Shown here piece by piece: positions 758-49,821 of a stretch of DNA of 64,000 nt. The DNA lies in NCBI GenBank assembly GCA_002729695.1, contig PBYQ01000016.1:1-64000 (forward strand), given 5' to 3'. The notes under the pieces are model-generated. The model was not told the DNA's origin. It was given only the letters and a program-made list of their open reading frames with translations, and ran no database searches. Position numbers and translations under genes: made by a program. Position 1 is the first letter of the stretch; every line of letters starts with the position of its first letter. The stretch is from Citromicrobium sp. (GTDB lineage: Bacteria; Pseudomonadota; Alphaproteobacteria; Sphingomonadales; Sphingomonadaceae).

Positions 758-3115
758 GTGAGCGATAACACAGCATTGGAAGACCCGGCCTTGCGCCAGC
801 GGTTGCCGGTGACGGCAGTGTTCGGCCTGAAGGCCGGGCCGGGCCTCGATTGGCCACGCCTGTGGCTGCTCCAGCATCGCGAACTCGCAAGGCTCCGCGG
901 CCCTCGGATCGCCGGACATGTCGCTGGCGCACTGCTCGCGCTGGTGATGTTCGCGGATGATCTCCCGCTGCCGCTGATGGCCTGCTGGGTCACCTGGATT
1001 GCCGTCAGCCTGTACATCTACACCCGACGCGACGCGTACATCCTTCAGATCGACGAGCCCGCCCTGACCGTGCGCGAGGCACGCTCTCACCTCCTCGGCA
1101 GCATCATGCTGGGGGTGGGCTGGGCCAGCCTGATGCCCTTGCTGCACCTCGTGGCAGGATCGGAAATGGCAATTCGCGGGCTGGTGCTGGGCGCCGGTAT
1201 CGCGATCGGGGGTGTCGTCATGATGGGGGTGGTGCCGCTGAGCGCCTATGCCTTCATCACCTTGCTGGCGGCGGGTGCTGCCACGGGCTTCTGGCTCGCG
1301 GGGCACGACGACATGATCGTATTCGTCGCGTTTTTCACGTTCTTCGCTTACGGATCGGTGTGGATCAGGGCGACGGACTTCCTGCGCTTTGCGGTCGCGG
1401 AAGGCTTGCTGCTCGAAAAAACCCACACGGTTTCGCTGCTCCTGAGAGAATTCGGAGAGAACGAGGCCGACTGGCTGTGGCAGATCGACCCGAGCCGGCG
1501 CGTGCGCTCGGCATCGCCGCGCTTCGCCTATGCGATGGGCTCCACCGCTGCCGAGCTCGAACGACAACCCTTCTTCAGCCTGATTGCCGGCAATATGGCG
1601 GAGACCGACCCTGCGGCGATGCGACTTCGCGATCTCGCTGACCATATCAAGTCGCGAGAGAGCTTTTCCAACCTGCTGGTCCAGGTCGAAGTGCGGGGCG
1701 AGCGTCGCTGGTGGGAATTGTCCGGCACACCGATCGTGGGCGAAAAGGGCGAATATCTCGGCTATCGCGGCGTCGGCTCCGACGTGACGGCGCAGCGCAA
1801 TTCGTCCGATAAGATCGCCTACCTGGCGCGATACGACACGCTGACCGCACTGCCCAATCGGCTGATGCTGCACGAGGCGCTGAATACGGCGATGGACGAA
1901 GCGCGCGAATCCCGCCGGCGGTGCGCATTCCTGATGGTCGACCTCGATCGGTTCAAGGCGGTCAACGATTCGCTGGGCCACCACATCGGCGACAAATTGC
2001 TGGAACAGGTCTCGCAACGTTTGCGCCAGGTCGTCGGTGAGGCGGATATCTGTGGCCGGCTGGGCGGCGACGAGTTCGGCATCGTTCTTCACGAAGTACG
2101 TGACTACGGCGAAGTCGACGCGATCGCCTGCAGAGTGATCGAACGCCTCTCTCAGCCCTACGAGGTGGATAACCACACCCTCTTCGTTGGTGCCAGCGCA
2201 GGCTCCGCCCTCGCGCCGCGCGACGGCAAGACGGTGGACGAGCTGATGCGCAATGCCGATCTGGCGCTCTACCGTGCGAAGGATGACGGGCGCGGCGTCC
2301 ACTTCGCTTACCAGCCTTCGCTCCACGCCGATGCGGAGGAACGCCGCCAGCTCGAATTCTCGCTCCGCAAGGCGCTCGAAAGAGACGAGCTGATGCTCAA
2401 TTTCCAGCCGGTGGTCGACGCGAAGACCGAAAAGGTCGTCAGCTTCGAAGCACTGGTGCGATGGCACAGCCCCGAACACGGGCTGGTCAGCCCCGCAAAG
2501 TTCATCCCCGTGGCCGAAGATACCCGTCTGATCGTGCCCATCGGCACCTGGGTGATGCAGAACGCCTGTCGCGAGGCAATGCTCTGGCCCGATCACGTGA
2601 AGGTCAATGTCAACGTCTCGCCCGAGCAGCTCGTCCAGCCTGATTTCGTCGAATCGGTGGTCGAAGCCCTGTCGCACAGCGGGCTCGACCCGCACCGGCT
2701 CGAGATCGAGGTGACGGAAAGCATCTTCCTGAACGATACCGAAGTCGCGCGGGTTGCGCTCAGCAAGGTCATGTCGCTGGGCTGCCAGGTCGCGCTCGAC
2801 GATTTCGGAACGGGCTATTCCTCGCTCGGCTATCTGCGCAAGCTGCAATTCTCCACGATCAAGGTCGACCGCAGCTTCGTTCAGGGGGCCGCGCAGGGCA
2901 GCAGCGAGAGCTTGGCGATCGTGCGCGCGGTGGTCGCGATGGCGCAAAGCCTGGAGATGAAGACCACCGCCGAGGGCGTAGAGACCGAGGAAGAGGCGAA
3001 GCTGGTGCGCGACATGGGCTGCGACCGGATTCAGGGTTTCCATTTCGGACGCCCGATGACCAGCGTCGACGCGTGCGCCCTGTTCGATCGCGACTATCAG
3101 GCCCTGCGCGCCTGA
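758..3115 (+). CDS. Membrane PAS-GGDEF-EAL cyclic-di-GMP signalling protein
   Basis: This 785-aa protein should make and/or break cyclic di-GMP at the inner membrane. The start is GTG. Residues ~60-215 hold about five hydrophobic segments, followed by a PAS/PAC-type region (~230-345), GGDEF (motif at 436-440) and EAL (motif at 564-566). The EAL domain keeps the usual phosphodiesterase residues: NVNVSPEQ, EVTES, DDFGTGYSSL, IKVDRSF, AEGVE and the Q of IQGFHFGRP. The GGDEF domain has an intact active-site loop, but the inhibitory I-site RxxD is GEAD here, so product inhibition is probably absent. It is a paralogue of the protein at 42184-44589. Phosphodiesterase activity is likely from the residues; cyclase activity is possible. 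Confidence 0.93.
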   Translation: MSDNTALEDPALRQRLPVTAVFGLKAGPGLDWPRLWLLQHRELARLRGPRIAGHVAGALLALVMFADDLPLPLMACWVTWIAVSLYIYTRRDAYILQIDEPALTVREARSHLLGSIMLGVGWASLMPLLHLVAGSEMAIRGLVLGAGIAIGGVVMMGVVPLSAYAFITLLAAGAATGFWLAGHDDMIVFVAFFTFFAYGSVWIRATDFLRFAVAEGLLLEKTHTVSLLLREFGENEADWLWQIDPSRRVRSASPRFAYAMGSTAAELERQPFFSLIAGNMAETDPAAMRLRDLADHIKSRESFSNLLVQVEVRGERRWWELSGTPIVGEKGEYLGYRGVGSDVTAQRNSSDKIAYLARYDTLTALPNRLMLHEALNTAMDEARESRRRCAFLMVDLDRFKAVNDSLGHHIGDKLLEQVSQRLRQVVGEADICGRLGGDEFGIVLHEVRDYGEVDAIACRVIERLSQPYEVDNHTLFVGASAGSALAPRDGKTVDELMRNADLALYRAKDDGRGVHFAYQPSLHADAEERRQLEFSLRKALERDELMLNFQPVVDAKTEKVVSFEALVRWHSPEHGLVSPAKFIPVAEDTRLIVPIGTWVMQNACREAMLWPDHVKVNVNVSPEQLVQPDFVESVVEALSHSGLDPHRLEIEVTESIFLNDTEVARVALSKVMSLGCQVALDDFGTGYSSLGYLRKLQFSTIKVDRSFVQGAAQGSSESLAIVRAVVAMAQSLEMKTTAEGVETEEEAKLVRDMGCDRIQGFHFGRPMTSVDACALFDRDYQALRA

Positions 3116-3124
3116 TCGGACGGG

Positions 3125-3799
3125 TCACGCCGTTGCGGCGAGGCCTTCCATGACAGCCTGGAACAGACGCCGTCCTTCGGTACCGCCATGTGCGGGGTCG
3201 ATGGCGCGTTCGGGATGCGGCATCATGCCGAGCACGTTCCCGCCCGCGCTGACGATCCCGGCGATATCGCGGCGCGAGCCGTTGGTCGCCTGCGTGTAGC
3301 GGAAAACCACGCGGCCCTCGCCTTCCAGCGCGTCGAGCGTGGCCTCGTCGGCGAAATAATTGCCGTCGTGGTGGGCGACCGGAATGGTGATCGTCTCGCC
3401 GGCATCATAGGCGGCGGTGAACAGCGTCTGCGCGTTCTCCACCTTCAGCGCGACATCGCGGCACACGAAATGCTGCCCCGCATTGCGCATAAGCGCGCCG
3501 GGCAGCAGGCCTGCTTCGGTCAGCACCTGGAAACCGTTGCAAACGCCCAGCACGGGCACGCCGCGCTCCGCCGCCGCTTTCACTTCGCGCATGATCGGGC
3601 TGTTCGCCGCCATCGCGCCCGAACGCAGGTAATCCCCGTAAGAGAAACCGCCGGGCAGGGCAATGAAATCGAGGTTGTCGGGCAGCGCGGTGTCGCGGTG
3701 CCACACCTGCGTCGGTGCCTTGCCGAACACGTCGCGCAGCGCGACCATCATGTCGCGGTCGCAGTTGGAGCCGGGGAAAGTGATGACCGCGCTGTTCAT
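3125..3799 (-). CDS. purQ: Phosphoribosylformylglycinamidine synthase, glutaminase subunit
   Basis: PurQ hydrolyses glutamine and passes ammonia to PurL in the FGAR to FGAM step of purine synthesis. The 224-aa length is typical of the stand-alone subunit. It is a class I glutamine amidotransferase: the N-terminus [11 protein letters not shown] is characteristic, the nucleophile is Cys87 in LGVCNGFQ, and His195/Glu197 sit in MPHPERAID. It lies 3 bp downstream of purS and in the same direction as purC, so the three are probably co-transcribed. The large PurL subunit is not in this window. Confidence 0.96.
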
Positions 3800-3802
3800 G
3801 GC

Positions 3803-4036
3803 TCAGGCCGCATCCTCGATCCGGTAATTTTCGATCACCATGTTGGCGAGCAGCTTCTCGCACATCTCGGCGATCGTCTCGTCAGAAACGTCGTCCGCCA
3901 CGTCGAGCTCGATCAGCCGACCGATCCGCACGTCGTTGACGCCGGCATAGCCGAGCCCGTCGAGAGCGTGGTGAACCGCGCGGCCCTGCGGGTCGAGCAC
4001 GCCGGGCTTGAGGGTCACGAAAATGCGCTTTTTCAT
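3803..4036 (-). CDS. purS: Phosphoribosylformylglycinamidine synthase subunit PurS
   Basis: This 77-aa small subunit bridges PurQ and PurL in the three-part FGAM synthase. The start chosen is the ATG at 4036, giving MKKRIFVTLKPGVLDPQGRA, which is how the family begins; the frame stays open further upstream, but that extension is Arg/Pro-rich and unlike the family. The pattern of a beta strand, 'KPGVLDPQG', then 'IGRLIELDV' is diagnostic. The gene is followed after 3 bp by purQ. No clear Shine-Dalgarno sequence precedes the ATG. Confidence 0.93.
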   Translation of the reverse strand: MKKRIFVTLKPGVLDPQGRAVHHALDGLGYAGVNDVRIGRLIELDVADDVSDETIAEMCEKLLANMVIENYRIEDAA

Positions 4037-4139
4037 CGGCAGGGGCTTTCGTCGTCCGGTAAGTGAATGCGACCCGTCGCCTAGCGTCGCCCCGCGTGAA
4101 GCGCAACGCGGCCGAAGCGGATGCTCACGACTTCTGGCG

Positions 4140-4943
4140 CTATTTCTTCTTCGGGGCGCCGGTCCGCATGCGGCCACGGTGGGCCGACAGGTCGAAGACT
4201 TCGCCCGGCGCGTTGTCGTCGTTCTGGAGCACGCCCAGGCGCCGGGCGACTTCCTGGTAGGCCTCTTCCTCGCCGCCCAGATCGCGGCGGAAGCGATCCT
4301 TGTCGAGCTTTTCGCCCGAGTTCATGTCCCACAGCCGGCACCCGTCGGGGCTGATCTCGTCGGCCAGGATCACGCGGCTGTAGTCGCCGTCCCACAGGCG
4401 GCCGAACTCGAGCTTGAAGTCGACCAGCCGGATATCGACCGCGGCGAACATCCCGGCGATGAAATCGTTGATGCGGATCGCCATCGCGGCCATGTCCTGC
4501 ATCTCGTCCTGGCTCGCCCAGTTGAAGCAGGCGATGTGCTCTTCGGCGACCAGCGGATCGCCCAGCGCATCGTCCTTGTAGTAATATTCGATCAGCGAGT
4601 GCGGCAGCGGCTCGCCTTCTTCCAGGCCCAGCCGCTTGCAGATCGAACCCGCCGCGACGTTGCGCACGACCACTTCGAGCGGGATGATCTCGACCTGGCG
4701 GATCAGCTGTTCGCGCATATTGAGTCGGCGGATGAAGTGCGTCGGGATGCCGATATTGCCGAGGCGGGTGAAAACGTATTCGCTGATGCGATTGTTGATC
4801 ACGCCCTTGCCGTTGATCGTGCCCTTCTTCTCCGCGTTGAAGGCGGTCGCGTCGTCCTTGAAATACTGGATCAGCGTGCCCGGCTCGGGCCCTTCGTAGA
4901 GGATCTTGGCCTTGCCTTCGTAGATCTGGCGGCGACGGGACAT
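4140..4943 (-). CDS. purC: Phosphoribosylaminoimidazole-succinocarboxamide synthase (SAICAR synthetase)
   Basis: PurC joins aspartate to CAIR with ATP in purine synthesis. The 267-aa protein starts [19 protein letters not shown], the usual ATP-binding N-terminus, and contains [16 protein letters not shown] and [10 protein letters not shown], both strong family signatures. The C-terminus is extended relative to the shortest PurC proteins and ends in a basic tail (GAPKKK). An AAGGT sequence precedes the ATG. The gene is the first of purC-purS-purQ; the 103 bp to purS holds no recognisable element. Confidence 0.96.
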
Positions 4944-5060
4944 GGGCTTACCTTGCGCAATTTAGCAAAAATGACTGCGCCCCGGCATCGCGAACGGCAC
5001 CTGCGCGGCGCGTCCCTGCCGGGGCGGATCGGCTCGCCGTACAGCCAAACGCGTGTCGCT

Positions 5061-6365
5061 TCAATCCGCGCCGCGCCCGCTCCCGTCCATCACGGGGGAA
5101 TGCGCGGCCTTGAGGCTATCGATCAGCTTGCCCAGCGTAGTGCGCTGGACGAGGACGGAGAACAACACTGCCGCAAAGGTCGCCGCCAGCAGCAGGTCGC
5201 GCGTGCTCCCCGCGGGTAGCGACAGCGCGAGTGCGACCGAGATGCCGCCGCGCAGGCCGCCCCACCACAGCACGCGGCCCGAACCCGGGGTAGAAAGGCG
5301 GGCCGCAGGGATCGCCTTGATCGCGCCGCCCACCGCGATGGCACGCGCGACAAGCGTGATCACGATCGCGGCAAGGCCGAAGAGCAGCTCTCGCACGCCG
5401 GGGACCAGTGCGATCACCTCCAGCCCGATCAGCAGGAACAGGACCGAGTTGAGCACCTCGTCGACCAGCTCCCAGAACTTGTTGACGTAGTCGAGCGTCA
5501 GGTCGCTCATCGCCAGATTGGCACCGTGGTTGCCGATCAGCAGTCCGGCAACCGCCATCGCCAGCGGGCCGGAGACATGCAGCTGGGTGCACAGCGCATA
5601 GCCGCCCATCACCACCGCCAGCGTGATCAGCACTTCCAGCGTGTACTCATCCATCGACCGCAGGGCGCGAAAGCCCAGCCAGCCGATCACGAGCCCCATC
5701 GCCACGCCGCCGCCAGCCTCGATCACGAACAGCCGCGCGCCTTCGCCGAGGCTGAAATCCGCACCCGTCACCGCCGCGCCCAGCAGGATGGTGAAGACCA
5801 CGATGCCCACGCCATCGTTGAACAGGCTCTCGCCCGCGACCGCGCTCTGGAGCGAGGCGGGCACGTTCTCTTCGCGCAGCACGCCGAGGACAGAGACGGG
5901 ATCGGTGGGAGAGATCAGCGCGCCGAACACGAAGTACCAGATCGGCGCGATTGGCACGCCGAGCAGCATCCCCACGCCCCACGCCGCCGCGCCGACCACG
6001 AGGGTAGAGATGATCACGCCCACGGTGGAGAGCAGTAGCACCGGCAGCCAGTCCGCCTTAAGCCGCTCCAGATCGACATGCAGCGCGCCCGCGAACAGCA
6101 GGAAGCTCAGCATCCCCTGCAACAGCGTCTGGGTGAAATTCATCTGCTCGAGCAGGCCGGAAACCGTCTCGTCCAGCGTGATGCTGGGCACCAGCGCGTT
6201 GAGAACCGTCAGCACGACCGACGCCAGCGCGCCCATGATCGTCAGCCCGATGACATGGGGCAGGCGGATATAGTGATGGTTGATATAGCCAAAGACCGCC
6301 GCCGCCACGACGAGGATCGCAGCGATGTCGAAGGGCGAAAGCGCGGTTGCGGCGGCGGTGTGCAT
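5061..6365 (-). CDS. CPA1-family sodium/proton antiporter
   Basis: This 434-aa inner-membrane protein has about 11-12 hydrophobic segments spread from residue ~12 to ~410. It carries the cation/proton antiporter core motifs SPTDPVSV (TDP at 154-156) and GESLFNDGVGIVVF (Asn-Asp at 183-184), where the Asp is the ion-binding residue in NhaP/NHE-type exchangers. It is expected to export Na+ (or K+) in exchange for H+. There is no cytoplasmic regulatory tail beyond residue ~420. It stands alone between purC and the winged-helix operon, on the same strand as both; the ion preference cannot be read from sequence. Confidence 0.9.
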   Translation of the reverse strand: MHTAAATALSPFDIAAILVVAAAVFGYINHHYIRLPHVIGLTIMGALASVVLTVLNALVPSITLDETVSGLLEQMNFTQTLLQGMLSFLLFAGALHVDLERLKADWLPVLLLSTVGVIISTLVVGAAAWGVGMLLGVPIAPIWYFVFGALISPTDPVSVLGVLREENVPASLQSAVAGESLFNDGVGIVVFTILLGAAVTGADFSLGEGARLFVIEAGGGVAMGLVIGWLGFRALRSMDEYTLEVLITLAVVMGGYALCTQLHVSGPLAMAVAGLLIGNHGANLAMSDLTLDYVNKFWELVDEVLNSVLFLLIGLEVIALVPGVRELLFGLAAIVITLVARAIAVGGAIKAIPAARLSTPGSGRVLWWGGLRGGISVALALSLPAGSTRDLLLAATFAAVLFSVLVQRTTLGKLIDSLKAAHSPVMDGSGRGAD

Positions 6366-6418
6366 GCACCCTGCCTAGCCGCGTGCGAGACGGGCGGGAA
6401 GGGGCGAGGGCTTTGCCG

Positions 6419-6733
6419 TTACTCCGCGTCGTCCCCGAACAGCATGGCCTTCATCCGGTCGAGATAGACGATCCACGCCTCGCGCCCCGCGTCGGTCAGG
6501 CATGCGGTGGTGACGGGCTTCTTCCCCTCGAAGCGCTTCTCGATCGTCACGTAGCCCGCATCCTCCAGCTTGCGCAGGTGGACCGAAAGGTTGCCGTCGC
6601 TCACCCCGGTGCGTGCGCGCAGATCCGCGAAATCGGCGCATTCCGCGCCCGAGAGGTAGGCCATCGTGGCCAGCCTGACGCGCCCGTGGATCGTGTCGTC
6701 GATCGCCCGGTAATCGAGCGGCGGATCAGCCAC
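6419..6733 (-). CDS. Winged-helix transcriptional regulator (MarR/ArsR-like HTH_34 type)
   Basis: This 104-aa DNA-binding protein is almost entirely one winged-helix domain. The pattern LATMAYLSG..ADFADLRARTG followed by VSDGNLSVHLRKLEDAGYV and the wing IEKRFEGKKPVTTACLT is typical of the small 'winged helix DNA-binding' family. It starts with GTG inside the end of the upstream membrane-protein gene (8-bp overlap) and is the last gene of a three-gene operon. It probably autoregulates that operon; a palindrome at 7824-7840 over the likely promoter is the best operator candidate. The signal it senses is unknown. Confidence 0.85.
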   Translation of the reverse strand: MADPPLDYRAIDDTIHGRVRLATMAYLSGAECADFADLRARTGVSDGNLSVHLRKLEDAGYVTIEKRFEGKKPVTTACLTDAGREAWIVYLDRMKAMLFGDDAE

Positions 6734-7367
6734 GGGCCACCCTCTCGCGCTTGAGCAGCATCAGCCCGGGCAGCACCGATACCACCACTGCGCCCGCCGC
6801 CATGACGACGAACTGGATCGCGGTCCCCGCGGTCAGCGCGCTGGCGACCACGAACACCATCGCGAGGGCGGCGTAGGCTTTCAACGCAGGCACGCGCCCG
6901 GCGGCTGCGCTGGCGGCCAGCGCGGTGGCGTAAACGCCGAAGGTGATCGGCGCGATCATGCTCATCAGGAAGAAGGTCATCGTCTCCCCCGACTGTTCGA
7001 GCCTCAGGTAGGCGAGGGCAAGCGTCGAAAGCGACACCACGCCCAGAAAAGCACCGCCTGCCTGCCAGACCGCCTGTTCCACCTTGTTGCCAATCGTCTG
7101 CGGACAGTCGCCCGGGGCGGGTCGCCACACGCGGCTCGCGATTACGGCGGGAGTGATCAGGCCTAGCCAGATGATCGGCAGGGCAACGGGCGGCCAGGCG
7201 AAAATGCCTGCCAGCACAGCCCCGTGCAGCAGGCTCGCCAGAGCGATCGCCGCGCCGAACACCAGCAGGTGGCGGCCGGAGAGGAGCGGGCGGCTGCGCC
7301 CTTCCTCCGCCAGTTCGCGCATCATGCGCAGATCGTCCTGCGCGGTTGGGGCCGATGCGGCGGTCAT
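6726..7367 (-). CDS. Uncharacterised multi-pass membrane protein
   Basis: The 213-aa protein has a soluble N-terminal ~35 residues (acidic and basic, RMMRELAEEGRSRPLL) and then about six hydrophobic helices to residue ~205, ending in the short basic tail LLKRERVARG. No catalytic motif is visible. The start ATG overlaps the stop of the DUF2141 gene by 4 bp (ATGA), and its stop overlaps the regulator by 8 bp, so the three are translationally coupled. Membrane proteins next to small HTH_34 regulators are common in sphingomonads; its function is unknown, possibly a sensor or anti-repressor partner (inference). Confidence 0.8.
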   Translation of the reverse strand: MTAASAPTAQDDLRMMRELAEEGRSRPLLSGRHLLVFGAAIALASLLHGAVLAGIFAWPPVALPIIWLGLITPAVIASRVWRPAPGDCPQTIGNKVEQAVWQAGGAFLGVVSLSTLALAYLRLEQSGETMTFFLMSMIAPITFGVYATALAASAAAGRVPALKAYAALAMVFVVASALTAGTAIQFVVMAAGAVVVSVLPGLMLLKRERVARG

Positions 7368-7798
7368 TGGCTATCCTCCGGGTAGTGTACGCGTTCGGTA
7401 AGCGAGGCGTTGCCTGACAGTGAGAAGCTGTTCTTCGCGAATGTCGGCATCCCGCGCAGATCGTCCGCGCCGATCATCGACCAGCCATCTGCGGGGCCTT
7501 GCGGGCCCATGTTGAACGTGCCGTCGCCGTTGATGTCGTGCCACACCGACATGGCGTAGCGGCCATCGGGGACATCGCGGAAGGTCACCGTCACCGTATC
7601 GGTCTGCGGGTTGACCACCTTCTCGCCCGCGACGGCTGCGGCCTGCATGAACTGATCTTCGCTTTGCAGGCTGATGTAGAGGTCGCCCGCGTCCGGTCGC
7701 ACATCGGTCAGCGTGACGGTTACATCGCCCGCGAGGGAGGGGCCGGCAGCGGCGAGCGCGGCGAACGCAGTTACGGCGCAGAGGGATCGGCGAATCAT
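7364..7798 (-). CDS. Secreted DUF2141-family protein
   Basis: This 144-aa exported protein has a clear signal peptide (MIRRSLCAVTAFAALAAAG, cleavage near residue 24 after LAG). The mature part matches the DUF2141 pattern: an Ig-like beta fold with VTVTLTDVRPDAGDLYISL, then PDGRYAMSVWHDINGDG, where the DxNxDG loop resembles a calcium-binding EF-hand loop. The frame is open 17 codons further upstream, but the ATG at 7798 has a strong Shine-Dalgarno (AAGGAG, 7 nt away) and begins exactly at the signal peptide. It heads the operon with the membrane protein and regulator, probably under control of the palindrome at 7824-7840. Function unknown. Confidence 0.87.
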   Translation of the reverse strand: MIRRSLCAVTAFAALAAAGPSLAGDVTVTLTDVRPDAGDLYISLQSEDQFMQAAAVAGEKVVNPQTDTVTVTFRDVPDGRYAMSVWHDINGDGTFNMGPQGPADGWSMIGADDLRGMPTFAKNSFSLSGNASLTERVHYPEDSQ

Positions 7799-47784: not shown

Positions 47785-47911
47785 GGTCGGTCATCTGTGC
47801 GGTGCGCGGCGCGATGACAATATTTTAATTCGCCTGCCCGGGGCCTTTGCAGGAACGATGCCCCGGCGCGGTGGGGGTGCCGCGCGCACAGCAAGGGGAG
47901 GCCTAGCGCCC

Positions 47912-48073
47912 ATGAATCTGCCAAATATTCTGCTCGAAAACCTGCCGGGGCTCGCCGATGCGCCAGGCCTGGTGGGCAGCTTCTTTCAAGCCGACACGCC
48001 CGGTATCGACGACCGGATCGTGTACCTGATGGTGTATCTCTACGAAGTGCTCCCGCCCGACGCGATGCTCTGA
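47912..48073 (+). CDS. Small hypothetical protein (53 aa), first gene of an uncharacterised trio
   Basis: I do not recognise this 53-residue protein. It has MNLPNILLENLPGLADAPGL at the start and IDDRIVYLMVYLYEVLPPDA near the end: Leu- and Asp-rich, no cysteine, no signal peptide and no clear membrane helix. The ATG has an AAGGGGAGG ribosome site about 10 nt upstream, and the stop is only 12 bp before the next gene, so it is probably real and co-transcribed. A role as small partner protein or substrate peptide of the two following proteins is a guess. Confidence 0.65.
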   Translation: MNLPNILLENLPGLADAPGLVGSFFQADTPGIDDRIVYLMVYLYEVLPPDAML

Positions 48074-48085
48074 GGCTGGCGAAAC

Positions 48086-49042
48086 GTGCACATCGACCCT
48101 GCACTCCGACATTACGCCAGCGATCACGCAGCGATCGTCGGGGCGCAGGGTCGTGTGAATTTGGCCAAGGCGCGGTGGCAAGCGCGAGACGATACCGGGA
48201 AGATACTCAAAGACTGCTCGACCTTCGCCCAAGGGGCGGCGCTTGCCGAATGTGCCCTATTATCGGAACTGATGGCGGGCGCCGCAGCCGCGGATTTCGC
48301 TGGCGAGTGGCTCACGGCGATGGTCGAAGCATGGCGCGCCGATCCGCTCGCGCAGGTGCCTTTCCGGCACAGCCGTTCGGGCGGGGTCGGCACGATCCAG
48401 CTGCACAGGGTTGGTCGGGTAACGTTATCGCTGATTGCCATTGAACCGCAGCTCGACGCACCTGCAAGGACGATCGCTTTCACCGATTGCGAGCGGCACG
48501 AAGTCGTTCTCGCGGGCACGGGCAGGGGAATCGCCTATGCGTTCGAAGCGAACCGGCCTTTGCGGGGTTCTCCGCTGCCATTGCGGCCTGGAACACGCTT
48601 TAGCGGCGACAAGGATCATGCACGCGCGATCCTCGCGCTCGATGCGCCGCTCGTCCTGCTCCGGCTCGTCCGCGAACCCGAATATCCTGCACCGACCCGA
48701 CAGGTCGATATCGCGACTGGCGCAATCGTACATCGCGCGTCCGCCAGCCCGGCAGAAGGCCGCGCGGAGCTTGCCGCCGCATTGCTGGGGGCAATGAAGC
48801 GCGAGGACGCTGCACCGGCGCTCGCGAGCTACGCCTGTGGACAAACTGGAGAGGGTGCGCGCTGGCAGGCGCTGAGGAACGCGCTTGCGCTAGATACGCG
48901 CGTGGGATTCGAGGCTCTCTGCCGAATTGCGGACCGAGGCGCCGATCCGCTGGCTGGTGAGGCGGACACTTTGCGCGAGAGGTTGTGCACAGCTTATCCA
49001 CAGCTTGCCAACCTGCAGGATCAGCTATGCCTCGCGAACTGA
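48086..49042 (+). CDS. Uncharacterised protein, second gene of the trio
   Basis: The GTG at 48086 starts a 318-aa protein with no motif I can name. The first ~110 residues look helical (FAQGAALAECALLSELMAGA). The middle ~110-215 is beta-rich (HRVGRVTLSLIAIEPQLDAP, GRGIAYAFEANRPL, LDAPLVLLRLVREPE). The last ~100 are helical and repeat-like (GRAELAAALLGAMKREDAAP; WQALRNALALDTRVGFEALC), like a solenoid. No membrane or export signal is seen. It overlaps the third gene by 16 bp, so it is coupled to it. Confidence 0.75.
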   Translation: MHIDPALRHYASDHAAIVGAQGRVNLAKARWQARDDTGKILKDCSTFAQGAALAECALLSELMAGAAAADFAGEWLTAMVEAWRADPLAQVPFRHSRSGGVGTIQLHRVGRVTLSLIAIEPQLDAPARTIAFTDCERHEVVLAGTGRGIAYAFEANRPLRGSPLPLRPGTRFSGDKDHARAILALDAPLVLLRLVREPEYPAPTRQVDIATGAIVHRASASPAEGRAELAAALLGAMKREDAAPALASYACGQTGEGARWQALRNALALDTRVGFEALCRIADRGADPLAGEADTLRERLCTAYPQLANLQDQLCLAN

Positions 49043-49821
49043 ACGTGGTCGCCCCCGCGCCACTCTCGCTCGATGAGTGCGTCGCGCGTCTGGATGAGGA
49101 GGGCTTCGATCCGCGCGACGAACGGTCGCTTGCCAATGCTGCCGAACTGCTCGCCGGTCTTGCGGCCAACCGCACGTTTCTGGGCGACATCCTGATCGGG
49201 GAGCTCGGCGGGGCGAGCGCTAGGCAGGAAGCGACTGCCTATGGCCCGCAGGCGATCATGCTCAGGCCTCCCGCAAGGGGATACTTCCTGCGCGCCAACA
49301 TCTGGCCTGCGCGCGGCGACCCCGCTTGCCAATCCAGCGGCGCGTCGAGCTTCGTCTACGGTCTGCCGCACGATCACAATTTCGACTTCCTGACAGTCGG
49401 CTATTTCGGGCCGGGCTATGTCAGCGACTACTACGAATACGACTACGAGAGCGTCGCGGGCGAGGAGGGCGAAGCGGTGGATCTGCGTTTCGTCGAGAGG
49501 TCCGCGTTGAGCGAAGGCCGCGTGCTGCACTACCGCGCGCGCCGCGACGTGCATTGCCAGCACCCGCCCGAAAGCCTCTCTGTCTCGCTCAACATCTGCG
49601 CGGCCAACCCGGCGCAGGGATGGTTCGACCAGTACCGATTCGAAGTTGATCGTGGGCGGATTGCGGGCGTACTCAACGCCAGTGCGAACGAGGTGATGCT
49701 GCGGCTTGGCGTGGCACTGGGGCACGAGGATGCGCGGGCGCTCGCGGCGGATTTTGCCGACCACCACCCGAGCGCTGCAATGCGGAGAGTGGCAGGGGAA
49801 CTGGTCGCGCGCGTCAGCTAA
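49027..49821 (+). CDS. Uncharacterised protein with cupin-like histidines, third gene of the trio
   Basis: ATG 49027 gives 264 aa, starting in the end of the previous gene. After a helical N-terminus (~1-75) comes a beta-rich core: RGYFLRANIWPARGDPACQS, then VYGLPHDHNFDFLTVGYFGP with H115-x-H117, DYYEYDYESVAGEEGEAVDL, and RRDVHCQHPPESLSVSLNIC with H176 and H179. An HxH pair with a distal histidine in this layout is typical of cupins, including thiol dioxygenases and other non-heme iron enzymes. That assignment is by pattern only; I do not know the family. The end is a short helical tail. Confidence 0.75.
   Translation: MPRELNVVAPAPLSLDECVARLDEEGFDPRDERSLANAAELLAGLAANRTFLGDILIGELGGASARQEATAYGPQAIMLRPPARGYFLRANIWPARGDPACQSSGASSFVYGLPHDHNFDFLTVGYFGPGYVSDYYEYDYESVAGEEGEAVDLRFVERSALSEGRVLHYRARRDVHCQHPPESLSVSLNICAANPAQGWFDQYRFEVDRGRIAGVLNASANEVMLRLGVALGHEDARALAADFADHHPSAAMRRVAGELVARVS

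Follow-up and report, generated by a model that had tools for sequence, protein, structure and literature searches.

A candidate minimal RiPP-like cassette in Citromicrobium sp.: a short peptide gene coupled to two proteins with predicted thiol-dioxygenase folds

The described systems that come closest to the locus reported here are the thiol dioxygenases, a cupin-type hydroxylase of a RiPP pathway, and the double-glycine-leader peptides with their C39 ABC transporters. A Ser-His-Tyr (SHY) motif belongs, according to the extracts of PMC10966181, to the small-molecule thiol dioxygenases (cysteine dioxygenase and 3-mercaptopropionate dioxygenase; PF05995). ADO and the plant cysteine oxidases (PCOs) oxidise N-terminal cysteine; extracts of PMC10966181 and PMC8503633 describe them as acting on peptides and as being without the SHY motif, and the extracts of the latter have the metal of human ADO held by two histidines from a loop and one from a strand. 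PbsQ, of the pbs cluster, is presented in extracts of PMC12257519 as a cupin-type hydroxylase that acts on a ribosomal precursor.

The locus that we compare with these lies in a stretch of 64,000 nucleotides from Citromicrobium sp. (assembly GCA_002729695.1, contig PBYQ01000016.1, positions 1 to 64,000), the whole of which we refer to as the window, and consists of a peptide gene followed by two larger genes, B and C. C resembles the small-molecule thiol dioxygenases in its predicted fold along residues 11–217 and has an HxH motif and a distal histidine in the same order, but it has an asparagine for the histidine and a cysteine or methionine for the tyrosine of SHY, is without a PF05995 match, has relatives with extra C-terminal helices, and is partnered with a probable pseudo-enzyme and a peptide. 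The fold predicted for C is also that of the N-terminal cysteine oxidases (Z 10.6 to 12.0 among the matches listed), which likewise have three histidines, and the ligand placement given for human ADO resembles the model of C, with two histidines before a strand and one within it; however, the window's peptide is without an N-terminal cysteine, and the SHY position is X-Asp-Leu in ADO and the plant PCOs and Ser-x-Asn in C. PbsQ, as far as the extracts describe it, is like C in its proposed role, being cupin-type and acting on a ribosomal precursor, but is JmjC-related (Cupin_8) and works with MNIO, arginase and radical-SAM enzymes, whereas C has HxH, a predicted thiol-dioxygenase-like fold, and stands alone with B. 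The double-glycine-leader systems find a likeness in some distant relatives, namely locus L118, with a leader-like peptide N-terminus and genes for C39 and HlyD proteins, and loci L180, L183, and L185, with a Gly-Gly site; the window's peptide has G-S instead of G-G, and no C39 protein was found in its genome (G000, 93% complete).

RiPPs and thiol-dioxygenase-fold enzymes are both known kinds, and what appears to be new is the combination, the trio being a proven member of neither family; in the openly licensed literature searched we found no description of a peptide with paired thiol-dioxygenase-fold proteins. We propose, with a probability of roughly 0.6, that the trio is a minimal RiPP-like cassette whose precursor peptide is oxidised by a complex of C and B.

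Layout and conservation of the trio

The original prediction described three forward-strand frames separated by a 12-bp gap and then a 16-bp overlap, and the coordinates agree with this (Table 1). Two proteins with thioesterase domains are encoded upstream and RuvX downstream (Pfam assignments), all on the opposite strand. Neither Pfam, NCBIfam, PHROGs nor PADLOC provided a usable match for any of the three products: the window's peptide and B have none at all in Pfam, NCBIfam, or PADLOC, the single family match of the peptide is to phrog_8900 (E 0.011), and that of C is to DUF693 (E 0.26).

Table 1. Features of the peptide-B-C locus, in window positions
Feature	Coordinates	Strand	Description
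Ribosome-binding-site-like AAGGGGAGG	47893..47901	+	strong; 10 bases 5' of the peptide ATG; read from the sequence
Peptide gene	47912..48073	+	53 aa, putative precursor peptide
B gene	48086..49042	+	318 aa, GTG start, probable pseudo-cupin partner
C gene	49027..49821	+	264 aa, predicted thiol-dioxygenase-fold cupin

The three genes are conserved as a unit, and the peptide is a gene family under selection. Of 60 related genomes sampled, the window's own among them, 16 have C: nine of the ten from its genus (the exception being G005), seven of the 26 from the remainder of the family, and none of the 24 from the order's other families. In a GTDB contig set 137 stretches encode C relatives, and for locus counts we kept the best 80 of these 137. 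A frame of at least 200 codons ends no more than 160 bases from the start of C in 79 of the 80 (the exception starts at a contig edge), and B itself is recognised in all 80 by a B profile and in 78 by tblastn with the window's B. The peptide is found at 78 of the 80 loci, a figure that requires an iterated profile; plain tblastn with the window's peptide at E 0.01 finds it at 50. Conserved synteny, which had been predicted from the window, is thus observed at nearly every one of these best 80 of 137 loci. When 17 partly duplicate loci from the genome search are added, the resulting 97-locus set has a frame in the B position in 95 and a peptide by iterated profile in 93.

The peptide-B-C arrangement exceeds what is expected by chance. 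Under a strict filter, 83 of 106 B genes have upstream of them a Shine-Dalgarno-preceded open reading frame of 25–80 codons with a strongly hydrophobic stretch, against only three of 488 control frames in the same loci; with a loose filter the counts are 88 of 106 and 58 of 488. The controls are mechanical open reading frames of at least 250 codons, not curated genes. The iterated profile finds no peptide in L017, L042, or L056, and L017 has a peptide of another type. The B profile finds no B in L114 (at a contig end), L116, or L128, and the preceding frame in the latter two is called B by position alone. In L003 (genome G004, of the window's genus) the peptide is lost together with residues 1–243 of B; we note that positions 1–1530 of this locus have another open frame in place of the peptide and the start of B, and that its C is open and 79% identical.

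Four recurrent clusters of open reading frames lie downstream of the trio, each common to 57 to 64 of the 80 loci, and a thioesterase-like cluster (labelled by likeness to the window's gene) lies upstream in 46, several of the 80 loci being short contigs. Because the gene order and these flanking clusters are kept across loci, the trio is a long-lived chromosomal resident in the window's lineage, in agreement with the chromosomal, order-conserved location first suggested for it. In a wider reading, to which as a whole we give slightly less than even odds, the peptide-B-C system would have been domesticated in this lineage into a vertically inherited, and possibly intracellular, peptide factor.

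A phage or mobile origin was considered for the window and set aside, as viral contigs searched with the window's C protein gave no relative. With the C alignment as query there is a single relative among them, L114, at the end of its contig, where positions 3–2600 hold the C homologue near integrase-like and replication-like genes (labels by eye); because of its contig-end position near an integrase-like gene, this homologue may be host DNA flanking a prophage. Plasmid relatives of C in a protein search occur only in Alteromonas stellipolaris and Vibrio sp. ED002, both gammaproteobacterial.

Predicted folds of C and B

An AlphaFold2 model of C, built from a 44-row alignment, has a pLDDT of 93.3 and a pTM of 0.88. 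The first 38 rows of a Foldseek search with it are thiol dioxygenases, the best being 4tlf (E 1.5e-8), and VIA-align 2 superimposes the model on 4tlf with Z 13.7 and an rmsd of 3.1 over 157 residues (model range 11–217). On the strength of these models C can confidently be assigned a cupin fold of the thiol-dioxygenase (CDO) type, and the non-heme-iron cupin layout that had been suspected from its histidines takes the shape of this predicted fold. H115, H117, and H176 are invariant in all 97 aligned C sequences (89 of them distinct) and in 46 diverse C sequences with identities down to 21%; in the model the first two stand just before the strand 121–127 and the third lies within the strand 174–179. 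The four histidines lie in the 264-aa frame where the original prediction put them. That prediction had also named H179 for the site, and this part of it does not stand, as H179 is not among the conserved positions of the 97-sequence alignment.

The position of SHY is occupied in C by S187-x-N189-x-C/M, where S187 and N189 are invariant and residue 191 is mostly a cysteine or a methionine. Evidence from sequence for kinship with known thiol dioxygenases is weak for C and absent for B, and the case for this kinship rests on the predicted folds: by hhalign against six PF05995-type proteins (one of which, L137, is below the family cut-off; a seventh match, the longer protein L138, was left out), C gives a weak match (P 0.023, probability 1) and B none (P 0.69). 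The weak match sets the S187/N189 stretch opposite T/S-L-H-I/V-Y of the six proteins, and P74 of C opposite the arginine of their Tyr-x-Arg, which we take to be the substrate-carboxylate arginine, Arg60, of CDO. PF05995 does not match C at E values up to 1 and finds nothing in the window's own genome. The metal triad of JmjC/Cupin_8 2-oxoglutarate hydroxylases is HxD...H, and C, which has HDH and not HxD, is not matched by PF13621 (Cupin_8/JmjC).

A PDB sequence search with C alone found nothing, and one with a 46-row C profile gave only weak hits: its N-terminal helices were matched, most strongly by TFIIF chains (E 0.008), and a TatC chain was hit once (E 1.2). A winged-helix, RRE-like domain was considered for these helices but not retained, since they also fall within the alignment to cysteine dioxygenase (model range 8–219). 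C is 260–265 residues long in the window's genus and has a median length of 300 in 75 other loci, the difference being C-terminal; at window positions 49690–49821, C of this genus ends some 30–40 residues earlier than its relatives, apparently without the last helices.

The AlphaFold2 model of B (pLDDT 95.1) has cysteine dioxygenases as its best VIA-align matches (6u4l, Z 11.5, rmsd 3.4 over 156 residues), and auxin-binding protein fills the first rows of its Foldseek search (E 1.4e-6). The thiol-dioxygenase (cupin) fold is common to the models of B and C, and only C keeps the three invariant histidines: among 33 B sequences the invariant residues are R259, W260, and A293 alone, with no histidine. 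Profiles of B and C align colinearly over 231 columns with E 2.6e-4, a modest match given that its probability is only 42. B is probably a pseudo-enzyme partner of C, and the simplest inference is that it is a duplicated C that has lost its metal site and serves as a partner. B had at first been taken for a repeat-like protein; it is a degenerate cupin according to the model, and the description holds only for the C-terminal end of relatives, where HEAT_2 is matched in L115 (an Alteromonas homologue, E 5e-9) and L118 (E 1.4e-8). The window's B has no Pfam match, and the last third of its model is helical.

The peptides and their surroundings

The peptide of the window's lineage is conserved along most of its length, its commonest residues being roughly MNLPKIDLSSLPDLDTxTGLFGSL...DDRIVVIMVYVYE.PP. 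Purifying selection on the small frame, a check set by the original prediction, is evident: pooled pN/pS is 0.47, and pN is below pS in 32 of 33 non-overlapping close pairs. These pairs replace a first dN/dS pass over 1961 pairs that was near saturation (median omega 0.55, with some listed pairs above 1). By part, pN/pS is 0.36 up to the conserved G-S, 0.69 in the linker, and 0.49 from DD onward, so that the first part evolves more slowly than the last by a small difference. The peptide could be divided into a leader of about residues 1–23, ending in the conserved G-S, and a core of about residues 24–53 with a DD-hydrophobic-YE-PP motif. No precursor or RiPP family model of Pfam or NCBIfam matched the peptides tried. 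Cysteine is unlikely to be a general target of modification, because it occurs in only 15 of 93 peptides of the window's family, one of 28 homologues mostly from the genus of G281, and six of 17 more distant peptides, leaving 116 of the 138 collected peptides without it.

Profile searches place C relatives well beyond this lineage, in 15 of 398 phylum-wide genomes, two of 369 in the class of G185, five of 337 in the window's class, six of 149 in the family of G360, and 59 of 201 in the genus of G281 (centre genomes counted throughout). Of 37 distant loci (L139–L175), 35 have a recognisable B beside C and 31 have a short hydrophobic frame upstream, of which one (L171) is doubtful; the six without a convincing peptide are L143, L146, L151, L173, L174, and L175, and a peptide is present in L194, a wider region of the genome of L151. 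The short peptide that precedes many distant B-C pairs is of another kind, and ends in a hydrophobic stretch that is often rich in Val/Ile. A hand-picked set of 28, mostly from the genus of G281, is homologous to the window's peptide family (hhalign probability 97.5, E 6e-12), and most of its members keep DD or DE and a hydrophobic stretch, often with YE..P. What the 17 more distant peptides have in common with these 28 is no more than a motif at the N-terminus (P 0.0014, probability 17) and a Val/Ile/Gly-rich end. Inspection by eye finds three peptides in each of L176 and L186, several of which begin with a similar motif but end differently. It also finds Gly-Gly or Gly-Ser/Ala sites, and in L180, L183, and L185 the site is Gly-Gly and only a short hydrophobic end comes after it. 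A possible peptide in L130 is without the Val/Ile stretch, none was seen in L184, L187, or L189, and none in L128 or L129 is convincing.

Export genes accompany some of the distant trios. The five loci described here were picked for study, and they are not a measure of frequency. In L118 a C39-peptidase ABC transporter (PF03412, E 3.8e-30) and an HlyD protein are encoded divergently from the trio. Upstream, L115 has genes for HlyD and for a protein annotated as a macrolide ABC transporter ATPase, together with one more frame, and downstream it has genes for another ATPase and an ABC-2 permease; beside B-C in L176 lie genes for an ABC transporter, HlyD, and an ATPase; and L186 and L187 have HlyD and MacB-type genes, L187 being the one without a visible peptide. 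Such surroundings are as expected of a processed, exported peptide. No exporter or protease gene adjoins the window's trio.

Explanations of the trio and divergent versions

In the RiPP-like reading, the 53-residue peptide would be a precursor with a recognition leader in its N-terminal half and, in its C-terminal half, a core running from DD through the hydrophobic strand to YE and PP. C would bind Fe(II) through H115, H117, and H176 and use O2 to oxidise one or more non-cysteine residues of the core, and B, its metal site lost, would be a pseudo-enzyme that pairs with C to bind the substrate or to serve as a scaffold. Some relatives may then cleave the product behind a Gly-Gly or Gly-Ala/Ser site and export it; since no exporter or protease adjoins the window's trio, the product made there may stay in the cell to act, or unlinked genes may take care of it. 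In position and in selection the peptide gene is what is looked for in a short precursor gene adjoining an enzyme gene, and the early suggestion of a substrate-enzyme pair is strengthened by the distant trios with leader/core-like peptides and exporter-type genes. Against the RiPP-like reading, most of the peptide's length is conserved in the lineage, unlike typical antibiotic RiPPs with their variable cores; its trio is without adjoining export or processing genes in a genome without a C39 match; the peptides tried match no precursor or RiPP model of Pfam or NCBIfam; the likeness of fold to thiol dioxygenases has no counterpart in sequence; and some B-C loci have no convincing peptide.

The same conservation over most of the peptide (pN/pS 0.47) and the same lack of an adjacent exporter in the window's lineage would suit a peptide that is a small structural or regulatory subunit, its hydrophobic strand joining one of the barrels in a B-C enzyme acting on a small molecule; B and C are almost always together, and a three-part complex would be natural. 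Such a three-subunit enzyme is possible above all for the window's lineage, and unlikely as the general explanation: a structural subunit needs neither leader nor export, yet one peptide lies beside a C39 exporter, two loci have three peptides each, and the peptides of distant trios have little in common beyond the N-terminal motif and hydrophobic end. A reading of C as a conventional thiol dioxygenase whose substrate is a free thiol metabolite, with the peptide frame as a regulatory upstream ORF and B as a stabiliser, agrees with the Foldseek rows and VIA-align 2 superposition of C, but seems very improbable in view of the replacement of Ser-His-Tyr, the failure of PF05995 to match C or anything in its own genome, and selection on the amino-acid sequence of the peptide, which a purely regulatory frame would not need. 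We attach similarly little weight to the peptide being an antibacterial or membrane-active bacteriocin with B-C as a self-protection or activation module; the hydrophobic C-terminal stretches, the C39 and MacB-type exporter genes, and the several peptides per locus in some divergent trios speak for it, but the window's lineage has a conserved peptide in a stable setting of housekeeping genes, with no local exporter.

If the RiPP-like reading is right, a fold that serves sulfur oxidation in the thiol dioxygenases has here been redirected, together with a pseudo-enzyme partner, to the modification of peptides. The trio would then be an undescribed bacterial route to modified peptides and a RiPP-type pathway missed by the family models searched, with its enzyme in more than a quarter of the genomes sampled from one genus. 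Having just three genes in its minimal form, it lends itself to a direct test.

Some divergent versions have further components. Upstream of B-C in L129 (positions 2765–5900; genome G622) is a Cupin_8/JmjC protein (PF13621, E 4e-41), possibly a second hydroxylase in that version. On the Vibrio sp. ED002 plasmid, L128 (positions 6201–7757) encodes a short C homologue with HNHDF and EIHEQ and a preceding frame in the B position; the region, in which the peptide was not identified, is flanked by Tn3 transposase/recombinase and restriction-modification genes. In L176 and L179 (G1223 and G1234) the B-C pair occurs in tandem copies separated by about 3 kb, and several peptides are present; G1223, G1234, and G1300 have three C matches each.
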